Positions 4,131-50,404 of a DNA stretch of 64,000 nucleotides are shown piece by piece. A program made the position numbers and the translations under genes. Position 1 is the stretch's first letter. Each line of letters starts with the position of its first letter. This DNA is from Microscillaceae bacterium (GTDB lineage Bacteria; Bacteroidota; Bacteroidia; Cytophagales; Microscillaceae). Location of the stretch: assembly GCA_011390205.1 (NCBI GenBank), contig JAABSX010000007.1:1-64000 (forward strand). Reading direction: 5' to 3'. The notes beneath the pieces are model-generated. The model saw only the letters and a list, made by a program, of their open reading frames with translations, did no database searches and was not told where the DNA came from.

Positions 4131-6272
4131 ATGTATAGATTTTTTCTGATAACTTTTGCTTTGTGTTTATTGCTTATCTCTGCTGAGGCACAAGATGAGC
4201 ATCACACTGCCATTAGGCTGCCTGCCAACAAATCTAAGGTGCTACAGCAGCTAGACAACAATACGCTGAGGCATGTAAAGTTTTTTGAAGGACAGCAAGA
4301 ATTCACCCATTTTTTGCAGGGAGATAGTATTTTAGCAGCCCAGGCAAAGCTCTACAGTACTGGTTTTAAGAGTGATAAGACTTATTGGGCAAAAATAAAA
4401 GTAGAGAACCAAGCAGATTTTGACAGAGATTATATTTTGTTTTTGGGCTACGTGAGTGAGGCAGAGGTCTATGTGGTGTATGATGATGTCAATTATCAAT
4501 CACATTCTTCGGGGTTTTTTGTAGAAAATCATAAACTAAACCCTCGCCAAGGGCAGGGGCAAAAAGTACGCATTACACTCCAATCTCAAAAAGTCAATAC
4601 CTTGCTGGTGAAGTTTAAGAACAGCATCAACTATCCTCCTGAGCCTTCTTTCAGCCTTCAAGATGAGGCATCTTGGCAGGAAGGCATTGCACAGACCAAC
4701 CTGATTCAGGGGATTTTTCAGGGCTTGCTTTGGTTGATTTTGCTGTATAATTTATTTTTGTTTTTCTCACTGAGAGACCTCACTTACCTTATTTTTGTAG
4801 CGTATATTTTTACGATTTCGGCTTATTTTCTAAATGAGTATGAGTTTTTAGAGCAATATTTCTTGCCAAATCAGCCTATTTTGAGTTTTCATTTGGGCAA
4901 CTTGGTCTATGTAGCCAGTGTATTTTATTTGCAGTTTAACAGATACATTCTAAACATTCCGCAAAAATACCCCACTTGGGACAGCATCCTTAAGGTCTGG
5001 CTTTGGCTAAGCATAGTGTCCATCATTCTTTTGTTTTCGCTTGCACCTTATGATTTTCAGCTATACATGCAGGTTCGCCTGACCTACCACGTTGCTTATG
5101 CTTTAGCATTGTTTGTCTTTATTTTTGCAGTACTCTGGATGAATAGCACAGTCGCCAATTTCTTTGTATTTGGTAATTTTGCGATGGTGCTGGGTGCTTT
5201 GCTTATCATCATGGGCAATCTGGGCGTGATTCCATTTAGCCTGTATTATCTCTTGGGGGGCATTGTGGCACAGTTGTTTATATTTATGATGGCACTTAGC
5301 TATCGCTACCAAGTAAGTATCCGTGAAGCACGTGAGAATCAACGCAAATTGATTATTCAGTTAGAAGCCAACCAACAGCTTCAGACACAAGTCAATAGAG
5401 AGTTAGAAGAAAAAGTAAGGGAAAGAACTAGAGAAATCGCCCAAAAAAATGAAGAAATAGAAACACAAAACGAAAGCCTTGTCTATAAAACACACGAACT
5501 AGAAAAAAGCCAGAAAAAGACTCAAGACAGCGTCCGCTATGCCCAAAGATTGCAAAAAGCCATCATGGGAGATGCCTCAGAGGCAATCAAACATTTTAGA
5601 GATGGTTTTGTGATTTTGCTCCCAAAAGATGTAGTCTCGGGTGATTTTTATTGGTCTTCCAAAATCGGGCATTTACGTATCTTGGTAGCCTCAGATTGTA
5701 CAGGGCACGGCATTCCTGGCGCTCTGATGACTGTATTGGGCAACTCTATCCTCAATGATGTAGTCAATGAAGAAGGCATCACTAGCCCTGACGAGATACT
5801 TTACGAACTTGATAAAAAAGTAATTCAAACCATTCAAAAACAAACCTTGGGTGAGCACCCCAAAGACGGCATGGATTTGATTGTCATTGCTTTTGATGAG
5901 ATTAGCTACACCATGCGCTATGCAGGAGCCAAGAATCCACTTTATTATGTGCGTGATTTTGAGATGCACCAAATCAAAGGCTCAAATGCACCTATCGGGA
6001 TTCAAAACAAGCGAATCCCTAAAAAATTTGAACTCCATGAGTTTCAGGCTCAAGAAGGAGATGTATTTTATCTTGCCTCAGATGGCTTTCAGGACCAGTT
6101 TGGAGGACCTAAAAACCAAAAGTATTTTACCAAAAGATTCCGTGCTTTGCTGCTTCGCTACAGTCATTTGCCGATGGCAGAGCAAAAAAAGAAATTCTTG
6201 GATGAATTTTATGAGTGGAAAGAAGCACAATCTCAGACAGATGATGTGCTGCTGATAGGGGTTCAGATTTAA
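4131..6272 (+). CDS. 7TM-DISM receptor with SpoIIE/PP2C phosphatase output
   Basis: A 713-residue inner-membrane signalling protein. In order: signal peptide (to about residue 21), a periplasmic 7TMR-DISMED2-like beta domain (about 35-180), seven membrane spans (about 190-390), a long coiled coil (about 400-475, LEEKVRERTREIAQKNEEIE), and a C-terminal SpoIIE-type PP2C phosphatase (about 485-710). Metal and active-site motifs visible are VVSGDFYWSS, LVASDCTGHGIPGALM, YAGAKNPLYYV, YLASDGFQDQFGG and TDDVLLIGVQI. Family knowledge: such phosphatases dephosphorylate STAS-type anti-anti-sigma factors. The extracellular ligand is unknown, probably a carbohydrate or similar small molecule. It is followed 59 bp later by tatD. 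Confidence 0.93.
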   Translation: MYRFFLITFALCLLLISAEAQDEHHTAIRLPANKSKVLQQLDNNTLRHVKFFEGQQEFTHFLQGDSILAAQAKLYSTGFKSDKTYWAKIKVENQADFDRDYILFLGYVSEAEVYVVYDDVNYQSHSSGFFVENHKLNPRQGQGQKVRITLQSQKVNTLLVKFKNSINYPPEPSFSLQDEASWQEGIAQTNLIQGIFQGLLWLILLYNLFLFFSLRDLTYLIFVAYIFTISAYFLNEYEFLEQYFLPNQPILSFHLGNLVYVASVFYLQFNRYILNIPQKYPTWDSILKVWLWLSIVSIILLFSLAPYDFQLYMQVRLTYHVAYALALFVFIFAVLWMNSTVANFFVFGNFAMVLGALLIIMGNLGVIPFSLYYLLGGIVAQLFIFMMALSYRYQVSIREARENQRKLIIQLEANQQLQTQVNRELEEKVRERTREIAQKNEEIETQNESLVYKTHELEKSQKKTQDSVRYAQRLQKAIMGDASEAIKHFRDGFVILLPKDVVSGDFYWSSKIGHLRILVASDCTGHGIPGALMTVLGNSILNDVVNEEGITSPDEILYELDKKVIQTIQKQTLGEHPKDGMDLIVIAFDEISYTMRYAGAKNPLYYVRDFEMHQIKGSNAPIGIQNKRIPKKFELHEFQAQEGDVFYLASDGFQDQFGGPKNQKYFTKRFRALLLRYSHLPMAEQKKKFLDEFYEWKEAQSQTDDVLLIGVQI

Positions 6273-13477: not shown

Positions 13478-15625
13478 ATGTTATCTCCTAAAGGAGTCAT
13501 AGGTATTTTCGTATATGTTAATCTAGTAAGCTGGGTGCTACTGCTGGTCATAAGGCTTATTGCCTTTTTGGGCTACAGCAATGTGGAGGTATTTGGTGTA
13601 AACTTCTATATCAAAGGCTTACTACTCAATTCTTTCTTACTGTTTGTGTTTTTTTATTTTAATGCACGGCAAGAAAAGATGGAAGACCCTAGCTTCGTGG
13701 ACATTATCTCCAATCTTTTTGTCTTTGGTCTGATTGCGACGGCTGCCTCAGTGGTTTTGCAGTTGATTGTTTCTTTTTTAGAAACGGAGCCTGTGAGCAC
13801 CTGGGCACGTATTTCCATTAATGTATTGTATCACTTGAATGTCGGGATACTGACTATCTTCTTGACCCAAGCATTTTTTTACTGGAAAAAAATGGTCTTT
13901 CACCAAAAAAGTATTTCAGTAAGTAAAATCTGGAATATCTTTGAATACACACTTTTACTAAGTCTGCTATTTAATTTTTTTGAGTTTGATATTAGGCATC
14001 CCCCTTTTGCACTGACACTGGCGATATTGCTCATTTTAGGGCTGGTGCTTTCTGTCAATCTTCGCTGGGTGGCATACCTCAATGCCAAAGAAAAATGGCA
14101 AAGCATACTCTATTTATTGTTCATTAGTATCTTTGCTTACTATTTTTTCTTAACGGTGATTAACCACTCCAATCATCCTTATTTTTCTACAGATTTAATG
14201 CACAGTGTCTATGTGCTTGCTGTATTTGTTTTTGTGATTTTCTACAGTATTTTTTCGCTTCTAGTGATCATCTTTAACCTCCCGACTACCTCCGTTTTTG
14301 AAAAAAAGATGGAGGAGATTATGAGTTTTCAGCGGCTTACCGAATCTCTGCAGATAGGAGAGGAAGAAGACCACGTCTATGAGGTCTTACTAGACAATGC
14401 CATACAATCAGTACAAGCAGATGCTGCTTGGATAGAAGTCAGAGATGAAGCAGGCAGGCAGATAGCCTTGGTCAATAGAAATATCAGCCATGAAAGCATC
14501 AAAAATATCAAAAGAACCTCTAAAAAAGAACGCCTCAATAAGGTAGTTAGCAAGACTTTTGCGAGGCAAAAAGAGAAAAAAGATACTGAAAATACAGAAG
14601 CTGAAGAGTTTGAATCTAGCTTTAAAGCTCCCCTGATTATCAATAACCGCTCTCTAGGCATCCTTACATTGCTCAAAAGAAGCAAAGAAGGCTTTGAAGA
14701 AGAGAAAAAAGAACTGATACAGACCTTTGTGCGTCAGGCAAGTCTTGCCATTGATAATTACAGGCTGCTGCGCAAAACCATTGATGCGGAGAGGTTTAAG
14801 GAAGAAATCAAAATAGCCCAACGCATACAAAAAAGCCTTTTGCCAGGGCATTTAAGGCTCAATGACTGTATAGACATAGAGGCCTTTTCCGAATCAGCTT
14901 ACGAGGTAGGAGGAGATTATTATGATGTGTTTTGCCGTGAAGACGGGCAGTTTATCTTAGTAGTAGGAGATGTCTCGGGCAAGGGCATCAATGCTGCTTT
15001 TTATATGGCACAGATGAAGGGTATCTTTCAAAGTCTTGCCCAGCTTAATTTTTCCTCTGAGCAATTTCTTTTTTATGCCAATCAAGCCCTTAGCAAATGC
15101 CTGAGTCATAATTCATTCATTACGCTCACTGTGGCACAGATAAACATGCAAGAGCAAAGCATCGAGTTTGCTCGTGCAGGGCATTGCCCCACTTTGTATT
15201 ATTCTGCCAAAGAGAAAAAAGCAAATTATTTTACGGGGCAGGGGCTAGGGCTAGGGATTATGCGCAACCCAAGTTTTGCCAATTTTGTGAAGCCTCTCAA
15301 AAAAACATACCAAGCCGGAGATGTAGTCATGCTCTATACCGATGGGATTCTTGAAGCCCTTAACCCAAGAGGCGAGCAATATGGTTACGAAAATCTCAAG
15401 AATATACTCGAGGAAAGTGCTGATTTGTCTTCACGTGCCATTTCTGATAAATTGGTAAAAGACCTGAAAGTCTTTGGAGAAGGCAAAAACCCCGACGATG
15501 ATTACACAGCATTGATTATTAAATTCAAAGCACCCGTAGCCGAAAAAATAAACTTAGAAACCCCTTCTGCCATCCCGCCACTCAAAGTGCCTTTAAAATC
15601 ATCCTCAATAGATACGATTCTTTAA
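13478..15625 (+). CDS. Multi-pass membrane GAF-SpoIIE/PP2C phosphatase
   Basis: A 715-residue inner-membrane regulator. Residues about 5-265 hold seven to eight membrane spans without a large periplasmic domain, about 285-440 a GAF-like domain with a charged insertion (RQKEKKDTENTEAEE), about 440-475 a signalling helix, and about 480-685 a SpoIIE-type PP2C phosphatase. Motifs include AQRIQKSLLPG, YEVGGDYYDVF, VVGDVSGKGINAAF, FARAGHCPTLYY, VVMLYTDGILEA and PDDDYTALIIKF. All the acidic metal ligands expected for an active enzyme are visible. The natural substrates of the family are phosphorylated STAS proteins. It converges on the next gene with only 6 bp between stops. Confidence 0.93.
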   Translation: MLSPKGVIGIFVYVNLVSWVLLLVIRLIAFLGYSNVEVFGVNFYIKGLLLNSFLLFVFFYFNARQEKMEDPSFVDIISNLFVFGLIATAASVVLQLIVSFLETEPVSTWARISINVLYHLNVGILTIFLTQAFFYWKKMVFHQKSISVSKIWNIFEYTLLLSLLFNFFEFDIRHPPFALTLAILLILGLVLSVNLRWVAYLNAKEKWQSILYLLFISIFAYYFFLTVINHSNHPYFSTDLMHSVYVLAVFVFVIFYSIFSLLVIIFNLPTTSVFEKKMEEIMSFQRLTESLQIGEEEDHVYEVLLDNAIQSVQADAAWIEVRDEAGRQIALVNRNISHESIKNIKRTSKKERLNKVVSKTFARQKEKKDTENTEAEEFESSFKAPLIINNRSLGILTLLKRSKEGFEEEKKELIQTFVRQASLAIDNYRLLRKTIDAERFKEEIKIAQRIQKSLLPGHLRLNDCIDIEAFSESAYEVGGDYYDVFCREDGQFILVVGDVSGKGINAAFYMAQMKGIFQSLAQLNFSSEQFLFYANQALSKCLSHNSFITLTVAQINMQEQSIEFARAGHCPTLYYSAKEKKANYFTGQGLGLGIMRNPSFANFVKPLKKTYQAGDVVMLYTDGILEALNPRGEQYGYENLKNILEESADLSSRAISDKLVKDLKVFGEGKNPDDDYTALIIKFKAPVAEKINLETPSAIPPLKVPLKSSSIDTIL

Positions 15626-23819: not shown

Positions 23820-24209
23820 CTAAGCTTTTTGAATAAAAGTAAGTTTGTGTGGTTTTCCATTGATTTTATCGCTAAAACCCGCATCTACATCTATACTGAT
23901 GTTTTCTCCGTTTTTGCCTACGATTGCAAACTTTTCAAAGATTTCTATCTGTACTTCTATAAACTCATCGTGCATATCTTTGAGTTCTTCTTTATGGTCT
24001 TTGGGCACTACCATCAAAAAGCTTTTACCTAGCATCTCACCCTTGCTGTAGCCTAGGATGCCCAGATAATTGGCATTCATCCCTACATAAATACCATTTT
24101 CATCTGTGATACAGATGCCTAGTTTTGTATTTTCTATGATTTCTTCAAATTTTTCGGGGTTTTTGTCTATTGCATTTTTGATGCGTTCTGTTTCTGTGAG
24201 GTCTATCAT
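23820..24209 (-). CDS. Stand-alone PAS domain protein
   Basis: A 129-residue cytoplasmic protein that is little more than one PAS domain (about residues 18-128): ENTKLGICITDENGIYVGMN, YLGILGYSKGEMLGKSF, then a PAC-like end KPHKLTFIQKA. A charged helix precedes it (TETERIKNAIDKNPEKFEEI). It has no output domain. It lies 61 bp downstream of the GAF-PAS gene in the same orientation and shares a terminator, so it is probably an operon partner, perhaps binding the same signal or forming a heterodimer. Confidence 0.88.
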   Translation of the reverse strand: MIDLTETERIKNAIDKNPEKFEEIIENTKLGICITDENGIYVGMNANYLGILGYSKGEMLGKSFLMVVPKDHKEELKDMHDEFIEVQIEIFEKFAIVGKNGENISIDVDAGFSDKINGKPHKLTFIQKA

Positions 24210-24270
24210 AATTATAAGATTTATGGGTAAGGATTAAAAAATAAAAATTGTAAGTTTTTTGATCGTCTTT

Positions 24271-25650
24271 TTATAATTCTTTGAATTGTTCTATGATTTT
24301 ATCTTTTGTTGCAATTTCATTTTTGAGGGCTTTGATTCTTTCATAAGCCTTGTCTTGAATGCTTTTGGTTCTTTCTTTGAGCAATATTTGATTTTGCTCA
24401 ATAATCTGCTGGGTTTCTAGGAGTTCTGTTTGTTGTCGTTTTTCGAGCGTAATATCATAGGCGATTTTGAGTATCTTCATGATTTGCTCTTTGTTATTTT
24501 TAATGGGGTAGTAAGTGCCTCTAATCCACTTAGATTTCCCATTTTTATCTATTCTATGAAAATCACTGCTGATGGTTTCTCCATTTCTGAGCCTTTCCCA
24601 GAGGTTTTTGTATTCGTCTGATTCTCTGCTGGCTGGGTGGACTAGCATTTTGTGCAATCTTCCTCTGAGTTCGTTTTCTTGGTAGCCGAAGAAATCAGCA
24701 AAGGCATCATTGACTCTGAGCATTTCACCATCTGGGCTAAATTCGGCAGAGAGGCTGGCACTGTCAATGGCTGCCATGGTGCTTTCTTGCTCTTGTAAAA
24801 GTCTTTGAAGTTCTTCCTGAGTAGCCTGTAGCTCTTCCATATTTTGGCGTAGTTCTTCATCTTGTGCCATGAGTTCTTCGGTTTGCTCACGTGTAGCTAT
24901 CAGTAGGCTGCGGGTTCTTTCATTGATGCGTGTCGTAATGACTGTACTTGCTAGATTCTCGCATAATTTTTTGATAAGCGCCCTTTGGTAAGTCTGAAAA
25001 GGATAAAAGGAAGCCAGCTCTAGCACCCCGATTACGTCATCTCCGTCTATGAGTGGGCAGATAAAGAGGTGTTGTGGGTTGCTATCACCCAATCCTGAGG
25101 TAATGCTTAGGTAGTCATTGGGTATTTTGGAGAGGTAGATTTCTTGTTTTTCGAGGAATACCTGCCCTACAAGCCCTTCGGCATAGTCATACTCTATGCG
25201 AATAAATTTTTGGATAAATTTTTTACGGTTATAAGCATAGCTTGCCACGAGCTCTAGGGTGGTATATTCATCTTCTTCTTCGTGAATTAAAAATAACCCT
25301 CCTTGGTTGGCATTCACATAAGGTACAATCTCGGAGAGCATTTCATCTCCCATTTTGCGCTGTGAGTCAAAGTTATCCCGCATTAGCTCCGAAAATTTGG
25401 CAAGCCCTGTGGTTACCCAGTTTTGCTGTTTTTCATTTTCTGCAAGCTTTTGAATTTCTGCCTGCATTTTAAGCAAACTACTGATGAGGCTTTCTGGCTT
25501 GTTAAAATCTCCTTGGTAGCTCGCATTGTTGCTATCTTGGCGAAGCTGATTCACAAATTCAGTAGCCTCTGCAATTTCTTGCTTTAGCATTTGGATTTGC
25601 TGTAGGTATTCGGATATAATGTCTTTTTTTATGAATTGATGACCAAGCAT
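24271..25650 (-). CDS. GAF-PAS coiled-coil sensor without output domain
   Basis: A 459-residue soluble protein. In order: N-terminal coiled coil (about 10-85), GAF domain (about 85-245; VPYVNANQGGLFLIHEEED, EYDYAEGLVGQVFLEKQ, FICPLIDGDDVIGVLELAS), a Glu/Gln-rich coiled coil (about 250-295; LMAQDEELRQNMEELQATQEELQ), a PAS domain (about 295-410; ALPHA/BETA core with FADFFGYQENELRG and the PAC end MKILKIAYDIT), and a final coiled coil to the C-terminus. There is no kinase, cyclase or phosphatase domain. It is a clear paralogue of the gene at 47104. The architecture suggests a signalling scaffold that acts through protein contacts. Confidence 0.88.
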   Translation of the reverse strand: MLGHQFIKKDIISEYLQQIQMLKQEIAEATEFVNQLRQDSNNASYQGDFNKPESLISSLLKMQAEIQKLAENEKQQNWVTTGLAKFSELMRDNFDSQRKMGDEMLSEIVPYVNANQGGLFLIHEEEDEYTTLELVASYAYNRKKFIQKFIRIEYDYAEGLVGQVFLEKQEIYLSKIPNDYLSITSGLGDSNPQHLFICPLIDGDDVIGVLELASFYPFQTYQRALIKKLCENLASTVITTRINERTRSLLIATREQTEELMAQDEELRQNMEELQATQEELQRLLQEQESTMAAIDSASLSAEFSPDGEMLRVNDAFADFFGYQENELRGRLHKMLVHPASRESDEYKNLWERLRNGETISSDFHRIDKNGKSKWIRGTYYPIKNNKEQIMKILKIAYDITLEKRQQTELLETQQIIEQNQILLKERTKSIQDKAYERIKALKNEIATKDKIIEQFKEL

Positions 25651-47103: not shown

Positions 47104-48627
47104 ATGTATCTGTTCAATAATAAAAGGAAACAACATTGTGAAACCTTACAGCTAAAATTTGACAAACTCAAACAAGAGTTAAGGCTTGCTACTGAGTTTG
47201 TAGAAGTTATCACAGAGGAAGATTTAGATACAATCAGCCTGAGTGATACTGACTTTACAGAGGCTGTTAAGCTCTCTAAGGCACTTCAGACGATGCAAAA
47301 GCAGCTTCAGACATTTAGTAAAGTCGAGAAGCAGCGAAACTGGAGCATCGAAGGGCAAGCAAGGTTTGGCGAGCTACTGCGTATGTATAATCAGGAAATC
47401 TCCGAACTATCAGATTATATCTTAAAATTCTTGATAGATTACCTTAATGCCAATCAAGGAGGAATATTCATACTTAATGAAGAAAACCCACAAGATGTTT
47501 TTTTAGAACTCAAAGCTTGCTATGCCTATGACCGTAAGAAATTTACCAAAAAGAAAATTCAGGTTCAAGAGGATTATGCAGAAGGGCTCATCGGGCAGAC
47601 TTTCTTGGAAGGGAAAATTACACATCTCAAAAATGTGCCCCAAGACTATGTACGCATTACCTCTGGACTTGGTGATGCAAATCCTAGTAACTTGGTGATA
47701 GTACCACTCCAAAACAATGACCAAAAGCTCGGAATCATAGAAATAGCTTCTTTTAGCCATTTTGAAGAATATCAGATTGATTTCTTGGAAAAAATTAGCG
47801 AAAGTATTGCCACTTCTATCAGCATAGTCAGAAGCAATGAAATCACTCGAAACCTACTCAGAGAGTCACAGTACCAAGCCGATACACTCAGAGCACAAGA
47901 AGAAGAGCTAAGGCAAAACAATGAAGAACTGCTCACCACCCAAGAAGAAATGATACGCCGAGGCAATGAGCTTAGTAGCCAAATAGATACCATTAACCGA
48001 AGTGGAATTATCTTCGTAGAGTTTGATAAAAAAGGAGTGATGCAAGAAGCCAATCAGGCTTTCTATGACTTATTCCAATACCAAGAACAAGAAATTATAC
48101 AACAAAACCAACACATCCTCAAAAATCAAGAAGAGAGACTTGAAGACGATAAGCTATGGGCACAGCTCGCAGAAGGAGTAGCTCAGACGGGTGAATATTC
48201 GTTCCTTACCAAAGACCAAGATAAAAAATGGCTCAAAGGAGGCTATACACCTATCATAGATGCCAATCAAGAAATGCATAAAATCATACTTATTGCCTTT
48301 GATATTACTGAATCAAAAAAGCAGATGGAAGAAATCCATAAGCAAGGTGAGCGTATGAAATTACAAGAAATTGTACTCCTCAAAAATAATCAGAAACTGA
48401 CCCAAGCCAAAGAAGACCTGCAAGATAAAATAGATGAGCTAAACCAATTTAAAGCCGATGAAGACAAAAGAATAGAAGAAAAAAATCAAAAAAGTCAAGT
48501 ATGGGTCAATAAAATGAAAGACAAATTGAAATCACAAAGCAAAGAAATGGAGGAGCTAAAAGCCCTGCTTATAGAAAAAGAAAATCATATTAAGGAACTC
48601 GAAAATAAACTCATTAAACTCAATTAA
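47104..48627 (+). CDS. GAF-PAS coiled-coil sensor without output domain
   Basis: A 507-residue soluble protein from the ATG at 47104; a TTG-led extension to 47035 has no family support. In order: N-terminal coiled coil, GAF (about 80-235; YLNANQGGIFILNEENPQ, QEDYAEGLIGQTFLEGK, VIVPLQNNDQKLGIIEIAS), Glu-rich coiled coil (AQEEELRQNNEELLTTQEEM), PAS (about 285-405; GIIFVEFDKKGVMQEANQAF), then about 95 residues of charged coiled coil to the C-terminus. No enzymatic output domain. It is a paralogue of the gene at 24271-25650 (shared INANQGG, DYAEGL[IV]GQ, ITSGLGD segments). It leads an operon: the next start is 16 bp after its stop. Confidence 0.88.
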   Translation: MYLFNNKRKQHCETLQLKFDKLKQELRLATEFVEVITEEDLDTISLSDTDFTEAVKLSKALQTMQKQLQTFSKVEKQRNWSIEGQARFGELLRMYNQEISELSDYILKFLIDYLNANQGGIFILNEENPQDVFLELKACYAYDRKKFTKKKIQVQEDYAEGLIGQTFLEGKITHLKNVPQDYVRITSGLGDANPSNLVIVPLQNNDQKLGIIEIASFSHFEEYQIDFLEKISESIATSISIVRSNEITRNLLRESQYQADTLRAQEEELRQNNEELLTTQEEMIRRGNELSSQIDTINRSGIIFVEFDKKGVMQEANQAFYDLFQYQEQEIIQQNQHILKNQEERLEDDKLWAQLAEGVAQTGEYSFLTKDQDKKWLKGGYTPIIDANQEMHKIILIAFDITESKKQMEEIHKQGERMKLQEIVLLKNNQKLTQAKEDLQDKIDELNQFKADEDKRIEEKNQKSQVWVNKMKDKLKSQSKEMEELKALLIEKENHIKELENKLIKLN

Positions 48628-48643
48628 TTAAACCATTACAAAT

Positions 48644-49060
48644 ATGGAAACTACTTATCATCAATCAGGCAGTCATTTTGTGAGACTTGATGCCGAAGTG
48701 CCTACAGTCATTATCGAGAATAATCAGTACACCTCAGGTGAAGATTTTAGAGAAGCCCTCAGCAAAACCTTGGATTGCTTCAAAGAGAATGCCGCTAAAT
48801 ACTCAAAATTAGGATGGCTCGCCGATACAGGCAATGCAGAGGTATTCCCCGAAGAAGACATCAAATGGGTCAATGAAGTGCTCAATCCTCAAATGTATGC
48901 GGCAGGAGTAAGGTACATCGCTTTTGTGTTACCAAAAGATGTGTTTGCAGGAATGGGCGTAGAAGAATACTCCGAAAATACGGACCCAGATGCCATCACT
49001 ATCCGAAATTTTGACAGCAAAGAAGACGCAAAGACATGGCTCAGTGAGGTTCTTGCTTGA
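48644..49060 (+). CDS. STAS/SpoIIAA-like small protein 1
   Basis: A 138-residue cytoplasmic protein with alternating strands and helices. Key segment: LADTGNAEVFPEEDIKWVNE, then MYAAGVRYIAFVLPKDVFAGMGVEEY, and the end FDSKEDAKTWLSEVLA. The order and the closing F-D-x-x-x-x-A-x-x-W-L pattern are those of SpoIIAA/STAS-like proteins of Bacteroidota. A phosphorylatable Ser at the STAS site is not obvious (a Thr lies in ADTGN). It is homologous to the protein at 49906. It starts 16 bp after the GAF-PAS sensor, so direct partnership is likely. Confidence 0.75.
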   Translation: METTYHQSGSHFVRLDAEVPTVIIENNQYTSGEDFREALSKTLDCFKENAAKYSKLGWLADTGNAEVFPEEDIKWVNEVLNPQMYAAGVRYIAFVLPKDVFAGMGVEEYSENTDPDAITIRNFDSKEDAKTWLSEVLA

Positions 49061-49158
49061 AAAATGAAGATGTTGCAGACAATACTCGTTATTGTCTGCA
49101 GCGCTCTATCAAGAACAATATCTTAAACTCATTATCATCTATACAAAGCATCACTCAA

Positions 49159-49842
49159 ATGGATAAATTAACACTCGCATCACAAGCCCGCGATTATATG
49201 AGTCAAGGACATTTTGGCTCTATGAATTTCAGGGGAAAAGACATCGTGGTCTTGCCTACTGTATTTATGCCTGACTCTAATACCCCTCTGCTCAGTGAAG
49301 TAGTGGAAAGCCTTGCCCAAGAAGTCTTAGAAAATAAAAAACATTGTAGCGTCTATGAAATGGGTGCTGGCTCTGGGGCTGCCATCGTTTATTTAGCTCA
49401 AAACCCCCATATTAAGGCATATGCCTCTGATATTGCTCCGATGGCAGTACTTAACATCAAAGCCAATGCCCTCTGGTGGGAGGTAGATTGTGAGGTCTAT
49501 GAGGGAAGCCTTTATGAAAATACGCCTGAGGGGCAGTTTGATATTATATTCTGGAACATCCCTTTCTTTAAAGAAAACCCTGGAGGGGTAGAAGATGTAA
49601 AGTTTAGAGCAGGCTTTGATCTAGAGTATAATTACCTCAAGAGATTCTTGCAAGAAACTCATAAGACTCGCCTAGCACAAAATGGCAAAGTACTGCTGGC
49701 AGTAGATGAGGATATGTGTGACCGCCCTTCTATCCATGCACTCATTGAGGAGGTTGGATTTAAGTGGAAAGTACAGGCACAAAAACAAATTAAATGGGGA
49801 GAAATGCCCGTAAATTTCGCTTTTTTGTTACTCGAAAAATAA
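49159..49842 (+). CDS. HemK-like class I SAM-dependent methyltransferase
   Basis: A 227-residue protein from the ATG at 49159 (MDKLTLASQARDYMSQ). A TTG-led frame from 49057 overlaps the preceding gene but its extra residues look non-coding. The SAM motif is VYEMGAGSGAAIVYLAQ, then ASDIAPMAVLNIKANA, and FDIIFWNIPFFKENPGG where PrmC/HemK enzymes have NPPY. The NIPFF variant keeps the Asn and the Pro but changes the second position, so the methyl acceptor may differ from glutamine in GGQ. It sits between two STAS-like genes in the same operon, 98 bp after the first and 63 bp before the second. Confidence 0.8.
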   Translation: MDKLTLASQARDYMSQGHFGSMNFRGKDIVVLPTVFMPDSNTPLLSEVVESLAQEVLENKKHCSVYEMGAGSGAAIVYLAQNPHIKAYASDIAPMAVLNIKANALWWEVDCEVYEGSLYENTPEGQFDIIFWNIPFFKENPGGVEDVKFRAGFDLEYNYLKRFLQETHKTRLAQNGKVLLAVDEDMCDRPSIHALIEEVGFKWKVQAQKQIKWGEMPVNFAFLLLEK

Positions 49843-49905
49843 ATTATATTCTTATAAATTACATCGTAACTTAGTACTCCATTCTAAAATTAATCTTATA
49901 CTCAA

Positions 49906-50307
49906 ATGACAACTCTCGAAAACAAATACATTGCCATCAAGACGCTAAAAGACAAAGGCATCGTGGTAGGCACATGGAATGAAACAGATGATGACTTCAC
50001 AAATGACACATTCAAGGAAAACATGCTTGCTTGGTTTGAAGAAGTCAAAAAATTAGGCAATGTCAATGTATTGGCAGATGCACGTAAGTTTAATTTTATG
50101 ATTGACCCAGATACCCAAATATGGGTCAATGAGCATGTCATAGGGCAGTATCCTGATTATGGGGTAGCTAAATTAGGTTTTTTGGTCAGCCCAGATGTTT
50201 TTGCACAAGTATCTATAGAGCAGACCATAGAAGAGAAAGAGCAAGCCTTTGAGGTGCAATACTTTGAAGATGAGGCAGTAGCTTTGGAGTGGCTTACCCG
50301 AAGCTAA
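49906..50307 (+). CDS. STAS/SpoIIAA-like small protein 2
   Basis: A 133-residue cytoplasmic protein aligned over its length with the protein at 48644: NVLADARKFNFMIDPDTQIWVNEHVIG against its LADTGN...WVNE segment, YGVAKLGFLVSPDVFAQVSIEQ, and the end FEDEAVALEWLTRS. It lacks any Ser/Thr at the position of the STAS phosphorylation loop (LADARK). It ends the operon; a terminator follows 20 bp after its stop. Perhaps it forms a heterodimer with, or antagonises, the first STAS-like protein. Confidence 0.75.
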   Translation: MTTLENKYIAIKTLKDKGIVVGTWNETDDDFTNDTFKENMLAWFEEVKKLGNVNVLADARKFNFMIDPDTQIWVNEHVIGQYPDYGVAKLGFLVSPDVFAQVSIEQTIEEKEQAFEVQYFEDEAVALEWLTRS

Positions 50308-50327
50308 ATCAGTATTTTAACATTAAT

Positions 50328-50379
50328 AAACAAAAACTCACTTGGCTTTCATTTGAAAATTGAGTGGGTTTTTGTTTTA
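50328..50379 (+). terminator. Intrinsic terminator closing the GAF-PAS/STAS operon
   Basis: A 15-bp stem, AAACAAAAACTCACT (50328-50342) with AGTGGGTTTTTGTTT (50363-50377, one G-U pair), and inner pairing in the loop. The 3' arm is T-rich. Confidence 0.82.
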
Positions 50380-50404
50380 AAACTTATGACTCAAAACATT
50401 CATT

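Follow-up and report, generated by a model that had tools for sequence, protein, structure and literature searches.

A rare gene module in a Microscillaceae bacterium combining a GAF-PAS sensor, STAS-like proteins and a HemK2/PrmC-related methyltransferase

Four neighbouring genes in a 64,000-nucleotide stretch of a Microscillaceae bacterium genome (contig JAABSX010000007.1, positions 1 to 64,000; hereafter the window) probably form a small signalling unit. They represent a rare, conserved gene module whose core is a sensor, a STAS-like protein and a methyltransferase, with a second STAS-like protein as an optional member. The set comprises the sensor gene (P0001, 47104–48627, 507 aa), the genes for STAS-like protein A (P0002, 48644–49060, 138 aa) and the methyltransferase (P0003, 49159–49842, 227 aa), and the gene for STAS-like protein B (P0004, 49906–50307, 133 aa). 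A first-pass annotation had described four genes running in one direction with short gaps and ending at a terminator, and this layout was reproduced: all four open reading frames are on the plus strand, the gaps were re-measured as 16, 98 and 63 bp, and the region following the last gene (50310–50385) gives on folding a stem of 18 bp whose 3′ arm is T-rich (−21.6 kcal/mol, z = −5.3 relative to shuffled sequences). The resulting intrinsic-terminator-like hairpin, located at 50328–50377 on the plus strand, was overlooked by a simple scan because its loop is long. Alternative TTG starts are possible for the sensor (47035) and methyltransferase (49057) frames; the methyltransferase ATG at 49159 fits the N-termini of its homologues in an alignment of six sequences. 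The 98-bp stretch that separates STAS-like A from the methyltransferase contains a perfect 11-bp inverted repeat on the plus strand (49074–49100; arms 49074–49084 and 49090–49100), with no second copy elsewhere in the window, and folds at −22.8 kcal/mol (z = −4.6); this hairpin was rejected as a conserved element due to its absence from the corresponding gap in a related genome (G004). A sigma-70 promoter scan returned matches at chance level, and no match to a spaced Bacteroidota-type promoter was found.

Orthologues of STAS-like A and of the methyltransferase were confined to the same three of 15 genomes of the bacterial family (G000, G004 and G009), with 54–70% identity for the methyltransferase, and with STAS-like A orthologues that are 68% (G004) and 75% (G009) identical and occur nowhere else among the 15. 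In G004 (L054) all four genes are present with order and direction kept (44, 68, 54 and 48% identity, respectively), while the other 12 open reading frames called on the contig have no match in the window, so the four genes are not neighbours by chance. The gaps in G004 are wide (303, 107 and 239 bp), and co-transcription is therefore not certain. In G009 (L055) the sensor, STAS-like A and methyltransferase genes follow in the same order, STAS-like B is missing from the cluster, and the trio is faced by gpsA, which is absent from the window together with the other neighbours. In G009 one interruption breaks the sensor frame and another the methyltransferase frame (L055:1233-3908), which may be due to sequencing error or decay. 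The proposal that the four-gene order is conserved thus held for all four genes in G004 and for the first three in G009, with the qualifications that STAS-like B is optional and that only three clusters are known in the 15 genomes, one of them with interrupted frames. In a tree of fumC, which represents one gene only, the three genomes do not form one clade, so either several lineages have lost the set as a whole or it has moved as a unit. The pN/pS ratio is below 1 for all cluster genes and lowest for STAS-like A (0.18–0.33), with synonymous sites near saturation. STAS-like A is also the most conserved cluster member (67–76%), as would be expected if it binds its partners tightly.

The methyltransferase matched PF05175 above the cut-off (E 3e-10) and is, as judged from its sequence, a class I SAM-dependent enzyme related to HemK2/PrmC. 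The first-pass annotation had placed a HemK-like methyltransferase between the two small proteins; the position and the HemK2/PrmC relationship stand, whereas two marks of a HemK/PrmC glutamine methyltransferase are missing, as the NCBIfam models PRK14968, HemK2 and PrmC matched below their cut-offs (PrmC 59.5 of 199 bits, HemK2 61.7 of 87 bits) and FWNIPFF, hence NIPF, occupies the position of the HemK NPPY motif in the alignment of six homologues. The motif at this position in class I methyltransferases usually goes with nitrogen methylation. Beyond the bacterial family, a 57% identical relative is encoded in Nostocales LEGE 11386 without the other cluster genes, flanked by aspartate kinase-like and sucrose synthase/phosphate synthase-like genes (named from their translations); no STAS-like relatives turned up when that genome was searched, an empty answer that is weak evidence. 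The occurrence of the methyltransferase alone in a cyanobacterium indicates that it can work alone, and makes its role the weakest link of the module idea. More distant relatives were found in a Chlamydiae MAG (29%) and in Ensifer (24%, fused to an aminotransferase-like region), and a phylum-wide draw of 395 genomes contained only three weak relatives (33–35%) beyond the window's own. A mobile or defence origin of the cluster was considered and rejected, as the sole PADLOC hit was a weak one, between the methyltransferase and a generic part of mad2; P0002 had no phage matches, and its plasmid matches were distant only and annotated as STAS/SEC14 or hypothetical.

The solitary cyanobacterial enzyme would be accounted for if the four genes were neighbours without a shared function, or if only the sensor and STAS-like A were linked and the methyltransferase and STAS-like B were passengers, and the absence of STAS-like B from the G009 cluster and the mostly solo occurrence of STAS-like family genes agree with this. 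However, it leaves unexplained the retention of gene order in non-syntenic surroundings, by all four genes in G004 and by the trio in G009, as well as the identical phyletic pattern of STAS-like A and the methyltransferase, and we regard it as quite unlikely. Our favoured explanation, held tentatively and at a little below an even chance, is a co-inherited module in which the GAF-PAS sensor acts by binding STAS-like A and the methyltransferase adjusts this interaction.

Pfam and NCBIfam analysis of the sensor identified a GAF_2 domain at residues 97–239 (E 2e-13) and a PAS domain at residues 301–405 (E 2e-10), arranged as an N-terminal helical region, GAF, a coiled coil at about 245–295, PAS and a long C-terminal coiled coil, the coiled coils being read off the sequence. 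No catalytic domain was detected with these models, including kinase, cyclase and phosphatase domains; the HisKA/HATPase module of two-component sensor kinases was likewise not found, and there was no STAS domain match. This is in agreement with the initial description of a GAF-PAS sensor with coiled coils and no catalytic output. The stretch linking GAF and PAS is the best conserved part of the protein (82% at residues 251–275 across three orthologues). The possibility that the sensor is a mis-called, truncated histidine kinase was rejected, given the absence of any kinase remnant and the similar coiled-coil ends shared by the three orthologues. The window encodes another GAF-PAS protein without a kinase domain (minus strand, 24274–25650), which shares 40% identity with the sensor and adjoins a small PAS-only protein, the pair spanning 23823–25650.

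STAS-like A and STAS-like B are homologous to each other (31% identity over 102 aa, E 4e-8), and the first-pass annotation was correct on this point. Both fall just under the gathering cut-off of 25 bits for the SpoIIAA-like family PF11964 (P0002 21.6, P0004 22.6 bits), which 31 of 49 members of their own family match at E ≤ 0.01 (best 1.8e-7), and a sequence search of solved structures with the small proteins gave no significant match. AlphaFold2 models built on family alignments had pLDDT values of 90.8 for STAS-like B and 88.7 for STAS-like A. Top Foldseek matches for the two models include SiaC, RsbS, RsbV, SpoIIAA and DUF3478 proteins, those of STAS-like A being SiaC, DUF3478 and SpoIIAA, with none below E 1e-3. 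A second structure aligner ranked RsbS first for both (Z 11.3 for B and 12.1 for A; 113–114 residues superposed at an rmsd of 2.5–2.6 Å), with the SpoIIAA-like structures 2ook and 2q3l at Z ~10 and with STAS proteins or STAS domains in nearly all of the best ten rows; crotonase-fold (MenB) and Ctp-protease chains also reached Z ~8–10, and the lower ranks should not be over-read. The models thus assign both small proteins to the STAS/SpoIIAA fold across the whole domain, as the first-pass annotation had predicted.

The same structural matches bear on a different function, in which the STAS-like proteins would carry or sense small nonpolar ligands, similar to CRAL-TRIO/Sec14 proteins, and the cluster would respond to or handle a hydrophobic molecule modified by the methyltransferase. 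The structures 2q3l and 2ook, which rank high for both A and B, have been proposed to bind nonpolar ligands, and the missing phosphoserine was taken to mean that a SpoIIAA-like function had been lost (PMC2954212); the Foldseek matches also include neurofibromin Sec14 modules. The scores of RsbS and of stressosome STAS domains are no lower, however, and the association with a sensor points to signalling; this alternative is considered unlikely.

In most related SpoIIAA-like proteins, Asp or Glu takes the place of the SpoIIAA phosphoserine where helix 2 begins (PMC2954212). Located by alignment, by the predicted helix start and from the same study, this position corresponds to P0004 residue 67. 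It is occupied by Asp67 in STAS-like B, and is without Ser/Thr in STAS-like A and its two orthologues (3/3). Canonical phospho-switching of the A/B pair is therefore unlikely, as far as can be judged from residue identities. Across 169 aligned family segments, this helix N-cap position is Ser/Thr in 80 and Asp in 18. Ser, Thr and Asp are common helix N-caps, and Ser/Thr at such a site alone is no proof of phosphorylation. The source genome encodes 45 SpoIIE domains, compared with two strong stand-alone RsbW-like proteins and two stand-alone STAS proteins, and some STAS-like paralogues could therefore be phospho-substrates. These counts, the frequent Ser/Thr at the N-cap and an operon-like row in another genome (G008, L064:5663-10201), in which the gene for a GAF-SpoIIE phosphatase precedes those for a STAS-like protein and a pair of GAF-PAS sensors without kinase domains, would suit canonical partner switching, with a SpoIIE-type phosphatase and an RsbW-type kinase controlling the phosphorylation of the STAS-like proteins and the GAF-PAS protein only modulating. 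Given the residues found in STAS-like A and B, and a cluster that has neither a kinase nor a phosphatase gene, partner switching of this kind is improbable. Two SpoIIE-type phosphatases are encoded elsewhere in the window (4131–6269, SiaA-like, and 13478–15622), and in the genome as a whole SpoIIE domains far outnumber RsbW-/STAS-type partners.

STAS-like A is specific to this cluster. STAS-like B carries the motifs I-x-P-E-x-Q-x-W and FAQxSxEQ and is a typical member of a lineage-expanded family, with about 16 relatives in the source genome and 4–41 detected copies per genome among genomes of the bacterial family. The 168 members collected lie in 137 loci, many solo and some in tandem, and most are without an adjoining sensor gene. 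A modest excess of GAF/PAS genes was observed next to STAS-like genes: they made up 18 of 288 direct neighbours, compared with 20 of 1005 genes at distance 3–8 (odds ratio 3.3, Fisher P = 5e-4), the loci having been picked for holding a family member and some being related between genomes, so that the effective sample is smaller. Several sensor-STAS pairs are 2–41 bp apart. HAMP-GAF proteins without a Pfam output domain lie directly upstream of a STAS-like gene at two loci (L171, L205), and hybrid histidine kinases adjoin STAS-like members at two others (L182, L202). Eight STAS-like genes are present within 5.7 kb at one locus of a further genome (G012, L235:4971-10617). No paper on the expanded family turned up in the literature library covered, nor did relevant combinations of terms give matches. 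Output-less sensors recur in these genomes, and a compact gene set that retains a STAS-fold protein beside such a sensor directly suggests what the missing partner may be. A broader reading is that kinase-less GAF-PAS sensors bind stand-alone STAS-fold partners in a phosphorylation-free, previously undescribed form of signalling, in which methylation of the partner replaces the kinase and phosphatase and the paralogues are a lineage-specific partner set; we consider this decidedly unlikely.

In the favoured scheme of a co-inherited module, the sensor would be a soluble GAF-PAS protein that dimerises via its coiled coils, and a change of state in the GAF or PAS domain would run along the conserved linker and alter binding to STAS-like A, so that a sensor without enzymatic output could pass on its state through this binding. 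The sensor and STAS-like A may then constitute a split stressosome, with its parts on separate proteins, or STAS-like A may be a SiaC-type adaptor controlling a client. The methyltransferase would most likely tune the interaction via methylation of a side-chain nitrogen in one of the components. The first-pass annotation had put forward a similar picture, of sensor dimers that bind the two small proteins and of a methyltransferase that modifies one partner; it is supported in part, by the retained gene order and the folds. The binding, the direction of signalling and the methylation target are what we infer from the observed gene order, its conservation, the domains and the folds.

Stressosomes, in which STAS-fold proteins work through protein binding, are one precedent. 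The cluster resembles the RsbR/RsbS/RsbT system in linking sensor domains with STAS-fold proteins, and both A and B are structurally closest to RsbS. It differs in that sensor and STAS domain, fused in RsbR-type proteins, are separate proteins, in that no RsbT-type kinase/HATPase gene is present, and in that A and B are without a Ser/Thr phosphosite and a methyltransferase is added. Lacking Ser/Thr where helix 2 begins, A and B also differ from the phospho-regulated anti-anti-sigma factors RsbV and SpoIIAA. SiaC (DUF1987) of the Pseudomonas aeruginosa SiaABCD system is also a small STAS-related protein, which controls its partner by direct binding (PMC8457831) and is among the top Foldseek matches; however, its sequence identity to the cluster STAS-like proteins is only ~10%, and the cluster is without a SiaB-type kinase, a SiaA-type phosphatase and a diguanylate cyclase. 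PF11964 (DUF3478; 2ook, 2q3l) is close to A and B in family matches and structural Z, whereas P0002 and P0004 score below its cut-off and the W and FAQxSxEQ motifs are particular to the expanded family. HemK/PrmC and HemK2/MTQ2 are the best-characterised NCBIfam relatives of P0003 and share its class I fold and motif positions, with NIPF in place of NPPY and all model scores below cut-off setting P0003 apart. The cluster is best seen as a variation on signalling between a sensor and a STAS partner, and not as a system of a categorically new kind.
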